Of a stretch of DNA of 64,000 bases, positions 44,969 through 47,321 are shown one piece after another. Every line of letters begins with the position of its first letter. Within the stretch, counting starts at the first letter, position 1. The notes below the pieces were generated by a model, which was given only the letters and a program-made list of their open reading frames with translations, made no database searches and was not told where the DNA came from. A program made the translations under genes and the position numbers. Source of the DNA: Natrononativus amylolyticus (GTDB lineage: Archaea; Halobacteriota; Halobacteria; Halobacteriales; Natrialbaceae); assembly GCF_024362525.1 (NCBI RefSeq), contig NZ_CP101459.1:248001-312000 (forward strand), read 5' to 3'.

Positions 44969-45163
44969 TTACGATCCGTCGATCAACCGGACGTCACCGC
45001 CTGCGACCGCGAGGAGGCGCTCCTCGAGCGCCCGGTCGGGGCCGTGCTCGTCGATGTCGGGGGTTCGCTCGAGGTGATCCTCGACCGCCCGTTCGATCCC
45101 TTCCTCGAGCGGCGTCGACGACCAGCCGAGGCCCGCGAGTTTCTCCGTCGACACGACGTAGGG
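44969..45163 (-). pseudogene. 3' fragment of a disrupted NAD-dependent epimerase
   Basis: About 64 codons remain, beginning PYVVSTEKLAGLGW and ending at the TAA. This is the C-terminal part of a haloarchaeal NAD-dependent epimerase/dehydratase. The 5' part lies at about 46745-47321 on the other side of the tnpB element. The two parts together are 60-75 codons shorter than typical family members, so some of the gene was lost as well. Confidence 0.75.
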
Positions 45164-45300
45164 ATGACATCCTCCCCGGCGTAAACGCCGGGGTTTCCTC
45201 GCGCGGGGTATCGCTTACCGACCCACTGAGGCAACTTGCGGGTTCGTATGCTCCTCGTTGGGACGGTGAGAGCGTGGTGACTCCGACCAAGTATGGTCGT
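45163..45300 (-). ncRNA. Predicted omega RNA (reRNA) scaffold at tnpB 3' end
   Basis: In this family the guide RNA is made from the 3' end of tnpB and the element's right end, and its guide is the flanking host DNA. Here that would cover the end of tnpB and the hairpin 45174-45193, with the guide reading into the epimerase fragment from about 45162 downwards. The limits are by analogy only. Confidence 0.4.
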
Positions 45301-46489
45301 CCTTGAGGCATACAGGCCGTGCCATCGGCCGTGTTACCGTCGTCTGCCGCCTCAGGAACGTCTCGCTTGCGGTGAGGTCTGCGTGGCTCTCGAAGCCGCA
45401 CGGACACGTGAGCGTGTCTCGGTGGCGTGTCGTCCGGTCGGTCGAACCACAGTTCGGACACTCTTGGCTTGTCCACGCTTCCGAGCGAATCTCTACGGAT
45501 ATACCGTACTCCTCGGCGGTACACGCGAGGCGCTTGATGAACGCCCGGAACGCCCAGAAGTTGTGCGTTTTCTCGTTGGCCCGAACCGACCAATGCGTAT
45601 CGAGTACGTCCGTTAACGCCCCGACGTACACCGTGGAGACGCCTTCGGCGTGCAACCGTTCAATGAGGTCGCGTGCGAGCGCGTCTTGGGCGTGGTCGCG
45701 ACGTCTTGTCCGGCTTCGGTATAGCGAGCGTATCCGATGACTGCTGTACCGTCCGTCGTCCAAGAGCGACTGCAACCGGGCGATTTCTCGCGTCGTCTCG
45801 CGGAACCGCTCGAACAGGTCGCGCCCTTCGTACAGCAGTTGCGTGCCGGTCGTGGTCGTACAGGCGACGAGGTTGTTCGCACCAATATCCAAAGCGGCCG
45901 TTTCGTCGGCCAGTGGGTGTGCCAGTCGAGGATTGTCGATAGTGACTGGCTGAAAGGCTCTGAATGTCTGTGCTTGTTCGTCCCAGAACAACTCTAACCG
46001 GCCCTGCTTGTCGTACTGCTTCCAGTTGGGGTCGCCCCGGACTTCGAGTCGAAGCCTCTCGCGGTGTCCAAGGCCGTACTCGTCTTTCAGGTCTTGGCCG
46101 ACGAGGATTTCGAGTCGGGAGTATTCGCCCCATTCGACCGAGTACGACGTGTTTCGGATGTACGTTCGGAGTTCGCGGTCGTCCTCGGCGTTGCCCCAGA
46201 AGCCGGGCTTGCCGTTGGCTTCACCCTTCTTTTGGAGTGCGAAGAACGACCTCCACACTTCGCGGTTCTTCCGTTCGATTTGCTGAACGGTTGACGCGCC
46301 GAGGACACCGCCGTAGCGTCCGCGATACTCGCTGATGTCCCACACGTCCGCGTCGGGGTCTGCGTAGTTCTCGCGGCGCTCGTAATTTATCTCGTTCCAG
46401 AGAGCGGCAGAAGCGTCCAACAGGCGTCGAAGCAACTCCTCGTCCGCGTGGGACTGAGAAACCACGTCGAACGTGTTGGTCCGCTTCAT
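45215..46489 (-). CDS. tnpB: TnpB-family RNA-guided nuclease homologue
   Basis: A 424-residue protein from ATG 46489. The C-terminal half is RuvC-like: the first acidic residue is Asp201 ([12 protein letters not shown]), the zinc ribbon has cysteines at about 344, 347, 362 and 364 (ECPNCG, CPCG), and the last acidic residue is Asp371 (SHADLTAS). The RuvC-II glutamate, normally in V-E-D-L, is absent: the strand reads [12 protein letters not shown], with Gly290 at that place. Glu306 (NEKTHNFW) or the Glu of SEAWTS might substitute. It is otherwise full length and undamaged. TnpB proteins cut DNA at the donor site, aiding retention of the element. Confidence 0.9.
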
Positions 46490-46518
46490 CAACCACTCCT
46501 ACGGGATGGCAAAACATA

Positions 46519-46540
46519 AGTCTATGGTTATCCATAGACT
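46519..46540. promoter_or_regulatory. Perfect palindrome between tnpB and the small gene
   Basis: AGTCTATGG and CCATAGACT are perfect nine-base arms around TTAT. The repeat fills the space between the divergent starts at 46489 and 46546, so a protein bound here would control both. It is AT-rich enough to include a promoter element. Confidence 0.7.
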
Positions 46541-46545
46541 GAGTT

Positions 46546-46677
46546 GTGACGAACATTCACATCGAAGTGCCGGACGAGGAACAGTACGAGCGGCTGAAAG
46601 ACGTGAAGAACAAGTACGGGCTAACGTGGCGTGGGATGCTTGTCCACGCGGCCGACGACTTGGATACCCCGGACTGA
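46546..46677 (+). CDS. 43-residue gene divergent from tnpB, possible DNA-binding regulator
   Basis: Starting at GTG 46546, the small protein begins MTNIHIEVPDEEQYERLKDVK and ends HAADDLDTPD. The pattern of a short strand, then KDVKNKYGLTWRGMLVHAA helices, resembles ribbon-helix-helix or antitoxin-type proteins. It lies inside the element, is transcribed away from tnpB and is separated from it by a perfect palindrome. I infer a repressor of tnpB and of itself. It is too short for family assignment by eye. Confidence 0.7.
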   Translation: MTNIHIEVPDEEQYERLKDVKNKYGLTWRGMLVHAADDLDTPD

Positions 46678-46744
46678 GCGGCGTCGGCGGTTATTCGGCA
46701 GTTGTCGGATTCACGCCCGCCGTAAACGGCGGGACTCTCTCCTT

Positions 46745-47321
46745 GAATCAGGTAGTCGCCCCCCGGGACGACGATCCGGTCGTGGGTCCGCACGCGGTCG
46801 ATCCAGTAGCCGAGCCTGCCGGTGGGGTCGTACGGCCCGTAGATTGCCGTCGGCCGGACGATTCTGGCGTCGACGTCGGCCTCGAGGAGCAGCCGGTCGC
46901 ACTCGGCCTTTCGCGGCCCGTAGCTCTCCATCGTGTCGTCGACGGCCTGCTCGGGCGAGCAGGGCTCGAGGGGCGTCCGCCCCTCACGGATCGGGACGGT
47001 GGAGCCGAGCCGGTAGGCGCTGGTACTCGAGACGAACACGTAGGTGTCGATGTCGCTGAAGACGTCGAGAGCCGTTCGAACGTCCTCGGGGTAGAACCCG
47101 GCGAAGTCGATCACGACGTCGGGATCGACCGCCTCAGTGGCCGCCCGAAGGGCCGCCTCGTCCCGGCGATCACCCTCGACGTGACCGACGTCGTCTTCGT
47201 CGAACGGGATCGGCGTGTTGCCGCGCGTAAAGAGCGTCACGTCGTCGCCGCGGTCGCGGAACTCCTCGACCGTGAACCGACCCATGAACCGTGCGCCGCC
47301 GATCGTCAAGACCCGTGTCAT
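46745..47321 (-). pseudogene. 5' fragment of a disrupted NAD-dependent epimerase/dehydratase
   Basis: About 192 codons from ATG 47321. The Rossmann motif GGARFMGRFTVEEF and the catalytic Y-x3-K (YGPRKAECDRLL) are intact, and VRPTAIYGPYDPTGR is conserved. Coding similarity stops at VVPGGDYL, where the tnpB element begins. The frame reads on into the element until a stop at 46557, so any product would have a foreign tail and no substrate-binding domain. The enzyme is surely inactive as an epimerase. Confidence 0.8.

Follow-up and report, generated by a model that had tools for sequence, protein, structure and literature searches.

The locus described here raises the question of how a nuclease carried by a transposon might be kept in check. 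Cas12 descends from TnpB nucleases, and it is not yet settled what prevents an element-borne TnpB from damaging its host. In a 64,000-nucleotide stretch of Natrononativus amylolyticus (contig NZ_CP101459.1, positions 248,001 to 312,000; hereafter, the window), an IS1341-type element carries tnpB and no tnpA, and a small gene is transcribed away from tnpB across a short spacer containing an inverted repeat. We propose that this gene encodes a ribbon-helix-helix (RHH) protein repressing both tnpB and itself, a reading to which we assign a probability of about three in four for DNA binding, repression and autoregulation; the existence of the gene, its fold class and its association with tnpB can jointly be regarded as nearly certain.

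The small gene and its linkage with tnpB

The preliminary description of the window, made from the letters alone, had placed a tiny gene divergent from tnpB; the gene is real and the coordinates were correct (Table 1). A gap of 53 bp separates its GTG from the TTG of tnpB. The comparison with the nearest four relatives yielded 15 synonymous and two non-synonymous changes, and the ratio of non-synonymous to synonymous change (pN/pS) over all pairs of relatives was 0.47 in the reading frame and 0.56–2.06 in the other five frames. According to these substitution patterns, the small protein is under purifying selection; a lack of coding constraint had been named beforehand as one of the outcomes able to refute the interpretation. 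The protein and profile search retrieved relatives in 59 of the 125 genomes of the same family and in 174 of the 391 genomes sampled across the class (roughly 45%). Wherever a source was named, it was a haloarchaeon; the plasmid records annotating such relatives label them "hypothetical protein", and no relative was retrieved from the phage records searched.

Moreover, a TnpB gene lies divergent at short distance in 77 of the 80 named loci of RHH-family relatives, which bears out the co-conservation proposed as a check. In the three exceptions, TnpB is truncated at its 5′ end (L042) or the relative is a tandem double-RHH protein (L091 and L097). The TnpBs beside the family belong to at least two distinct groups, and the genome itself harbors two more copies with the same layout (L002 and L008). 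Viewed from TnpB, eight out of 30 relatives are accompanied by the RHH family, eight by a second small family (MRPNIDI, see below) and five by tnpA directly upstream with no small gene; the remainder have neither small family nor tnpA close by, or are truncated.

These data bear on the possibility that the small protein aids transposition or DNA architecture, for instance by binding a transfer intermediate, rather than transcription. It is encoded by the element, and the one TnpA match of the genome, outside the window (C2:103000-103359), could act in trans; the repeat, however, is found at promoters and not at the element ends, and the small gene is missing from all five relatives that have tnpA immediately upstream. 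We consider such a role very improbable.

Predicted fold of the small protein

The suggestion that the product is RHH-like, also made in the preliminary description, was borne out by the predicted structure and its comparison. The AlphaFold model (49 relatives), with a predicted local distance difference test (pLDDT) score of 92.7, consists of an extended N-terminus and two helices (residues 11–23 and 28–40); it represents the monomer, and the β-strand of RHH proteins forms only in the dimer. In the VIA structure comparison, the best rows were NikR, Arc, CopG and PutA, with Z of 5.1–5.4 over 40–42 residues; Arc superposes on the model at 1.5 Å over 40 residues, and a CopG–DNA structure is among the best matches. 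The majority of the Foldseek matches were RHH proteins as well, the top five being CopG and PutA, none of them with E < 1. These scores are modest for a model of 43 residues, yet the matches cover the whole chain and are mutually consistent. Aligned by hhalign with the nine proteins that this genome has in Pfam RHH_1, the family gave a probability of 91, and the search of PDB sequences returned chance-level matches only. On the basis of the model, the small protein is predicted to be a full RHH monomer of the MetJ/Arc/CopG superfamily.

The inverted repeat and the promoters

The perfect inverted repeat with nine-base arms noted between the two starts is indeed present (Table 1). The palindrome alone is weak to modest evidence, since 12 such repeats with a spacer of at most 12 were listed for the window, two of them being shifted readings of others, and dinucleotide shuffles of the 53-bp gap gave a p of about 0.015; about 0.01 would be expected by chance in the gap. 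Given this dozen of repeats, one might think of a chance open reading frame (ORF) next to a chance palindrome. The layout in 77 of 80 relatives, the purifying selection and the covariation of the half-sites (see below) settle the observation and, together with the fold prediction, contradict this explanation, whose probability is negligible. The expectation that the palindrome would accompany the small gene beside other tnpB genes held for some subfamilies, while others have short inverted or direct repeats, for example CCATAGATA-CAAA-TATCTATGG in L024 and direct copies of TGTATGTTT in L031.

The putative operator abuts a TATA-like box apparently shared by the two genes, whose ATAA/TTAT core precedes the TTG of tnpB by 27 bases and the GTG of the small gene by 30. 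In 56 gaps of the window type, an ATAA/ATTA/TTAA tetramer occurs far more often at −27 from the small start (37 counts) than at any other position. This spacing would fit leaderless transcripts from overlapping divergent promoters.

The position of the operator directly upstream of the TATA-like box of tnpB may also be read in another way. Some archaeal activators bind just upstream of the TATA box, and the RHH protein might activate tnpB from there while repressing itself. However, the operator overlaps the box and the position of the transcription factor B recognition element (BRE) instead of sitting further upstream, and the layout of type V-K CRISPR-associated transposons (CAST), in which the tested CvkR (MerR type) represses cas12k (PMC9938897), points to repression; activation is thus unlikely.

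Co-evolution of the spacer and the protein

The subgroup nearest to the window combines the repeat core CTATG-N6-CATAG with the strand NIHIE, and the SN[HY]VNIE subgroup mostly has the core CTACG-N6-CGTAG. Across 26 sequences, complementarity (G–T allowed) extended to 80% of the cells in nine pairs of half-site positions, against 27–39% when the half-sites were slid, the core pair being C–G in 17 and T–A in six. Watson–Crick complementarity was 68% at the operator centre, with a mean of 27% (standard deviation 11) over all centres.

For the last 33 bases of 56 gaps, spacer similarity correlates with RHH similarity once TnpB is controlled for (partial r of 0.66, reached by none of 999 permutations); the corresponding value with TnpB, controlling for RHH, is 0.07. 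By protein segment, the correlation is 0.55 for the β-strand and 0.18 for the helices, and the same test on a second TnpB clade gave 0.41 with RHH and −0.10 with TnpB. According to these comparisons of sequences, variation in the spacer DNA goes with that of the RHH protein rather than with that of TnpB. Moreover, the same RHH type occurs beside TnpBs merely ~60–70% identical, and differing types beside TnpBs ~88% identical.

The latter observation also concerns the idea that the small protein acts like an antitoxin, binding and restraining the TnpB protein, DNA autoregulation being secondary. Antitoxins often contain RHH domains (PMC8987985) and the small gene is closely linked to a nuclease gene, but a protein of 43 residues has no extension past the RHH core for contacting a partner, and the RHH type is not matched to TnpB identity. 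A partnership of this kind is therefore improbable.

A proposed model for the regulation of tnpB

Returning to the reading that we favor, the small gene would encode a minimal RHH transcription factor built into a TnpB element devoid of tnpA. As a dimer or a tetramer, the protein would bind the repeat of the 53-bp spacer through its N-terminal β-strand and would thereby occupy the BRE position of tnpB as well as the region where transcription of the small gene is initiated; since the repeat spans both, tnpB and the small gene would both be repressed and held at a low set point. This, in turn, would limit the nuclease and, through the tnpB mRNA, the guide RNA together, because in haloarchaea the guide RNAs arise by processing of tnpB transcripts (PMC8303175). 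The interpretation originally given to the locus, that of a self-regulating repressor, is supported by the co-conservation and by the constrained frame; DNA binding and repression themselves are inferred.

Some points weigh against the favored reading. The small protein falls below the cut-off of every Pfam and NCBIfam family scanned. A perfect palindrome is notable by itself (p < 0.05) in only 8% of 98 single gaps, and was accordingly rejected as a universal mark. The operator adjoins the β-strand codons, and linkage without recombination could yield part of the correlation. Lastly, half-site types vary by clade, and the change between C–G and T–A may represent perhaps one or two evolutionary events.

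More tentatively, and as something possible rather than probable, the RHH gene and the spacer might form an exchangeable specificity cassette, swapped or diversified while TnpB is kept, the operator types representing immunity groups. This would explain why the spacer DNA follows RHH over TnpB, and the presence of two operator types among the three related elements of one genome (one in the window, the other in L002 and L008). If true, a resident repressor would silence incoming elements of the same type and not others, like phage repressors.

Other small families

The second small family (MRPNIDI..., 46–47 residues, L198–L227) is divergent beside other TnpBs in 29 out of 30 loci, was found in 110 of 292 genomes and is apparently undescribed. 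A relationship by sequence with the first family or with RHH_1 received no support. Its model is weaker than that of the first family (pLDDT 75), with low structure matches (MatP, Z 2.6); a match to the DNA-binding TraM had an E of 0.012. The MRPN domain also begins, or nearly begins, larger proteins (~350–430 residues) having an unfamiliar C-terminal part (L228–L233); the long ORFs listed next to these include no TnpB.

The genome of the window has a further TnpB (L157, G000:C2:760801-762126) with a divergent ORF of 96 codons that weakly matches the helix-turn-helix family HTH_11 (E of 3.7e-5, below the cut-off); judging from this match, divergent regulators of a third kind may exist. Related to the small protein, a tandem double-RHH protein of 103–107 residues is found away from tnpB in L158:1843-2166 (G000:C2:702842-703165), L091 and L097.

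The element and its surroundings

The features of the element are listed in Table 1. TnpB carries the OrfB and TNB (zinc-ribbon) domains, and its start is either the TTG at 46492 or the ATG at 46489. A sub-threshold Rfam match to HgcC (25.4 bits, gathering score 50, E 0.0027) at the 3′ end of tnpB contains the end hairpin.

Table 1. Coordinates of the element's features within the window.
Feature	Position	Strand	Remarks
Likely 3′ part of guide (omega) RNA	45151..45301	-	End hairpin 45174-45193; assigned from position at tnpB 3′ end
tnpB, RNA-guided endonuclease, IS200/IS605 (IS1341-type)	45215..46492	-	PF01385 2e-25; PF07282 2e-13; NF040570 (131 bits, cut-off 100)
ATAA/TTAT core of putative shared TATA-like box	46516..46519		Read from position only
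Putative operator, inverted repeat AGTCTATGG-TTAT-CCATAGACT	46519..46540		Perfect 9-bp arms (46519-46527 and 46532-46540), four-base spacer; half-sites covary in relatives
Small RHH gene	46546..46677	+	43 residues, MTNIHIEVPDEEQYERLKDVKNKYGLTWRGMLVHAADDLDTPD; GTG start; family conserved and under purifying selection, RHH fold predicted
Subterminal hairpin CCCGCCGTAAACGGCGGG	46716..46733		Element's tnpB-upstream end; similar ends elsewhere in the genome

The element sits in the remnant of an NAD-dependent epimerase-like gene (44969-45163 and 46745-47321, reverse strand), with the N part (MTRVLTIGGARFMG...) and the C part (PYVVSTEKLAGLGW...) on either side of it; the remnant lacks ~85 central residues that the intact relatives L235 and L236 have. 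Four further loci (L003, L004, L005 and L007) match the element-end hairpin only, with no tnpB among the ORFs listed, and are possibly end-only miniature elements.

Comparison with known systems

The element resembles the haloarchaeal IS1341-type elements with sot/omega RNAs, having a tnpB without tnpA and a likely 3′ guide RNA (PMC8303175, PMC12558985 and PMC3119063; no mention of a divergent regulator gene was found in the passages searched); it differs from autonomous IS605, which has tnpA plus tnpB. The controls discussed for the TnpB family to date are post-transcriptional (PMC12558985). No description of such a regulator for TnpB or for archaea was found in the open-licence literature, and a report elsewhere is possible.

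The small protein is similar to the Arc, CopG and MetJ repressors in predicted fold, in size and in the inverted or direct repeats at its own promoter; unlike them, it is under every Pfam cut-off and is located in a TnpB element.

Upstream of cas12k in type V-K CAST, and oriented away from it, are small Arc-like genes and the gene of the repressor CvkR (PMC9938897). The locus itself is not such a transposon: the effector is TnpB, and the adjoining ORFs are epimerase remnants and host genes, not CAST genes. As with Arc_1 and Arc_2 (Ziemann et al. 2023, PMC9938897), a small RHH gene is divergent from a type V effector; those proteins, however, have 53–72 residues and belong to cyanobacterial CAST with Cas12k and Tn7-like genes, whereas here the effector is TnpB, the hosts are haloarchaea, the protein is shorter and the element has no transposase. 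CvkR is likewise encoded by a divergent gene with a palindrome at the effector promoter; it has a MerR fold and 139–185 residues, and its repression was experimentally demonstrated (PMC9938897), whereas here repression is proposed. The closest precedent is thus represented by the Arc-like genes divergent to cas12k in V-K CAST, an arrangement here extended to TnpB and to archaea. If the proposed repression is true, a dedicated transcriptional repressor would be present in roughly 45% of the sampled genomes of the class, and even minimal TnpB elements would carry their own transcriptional switch, in parallel with the Arc/MerR genes of V-K CAST.
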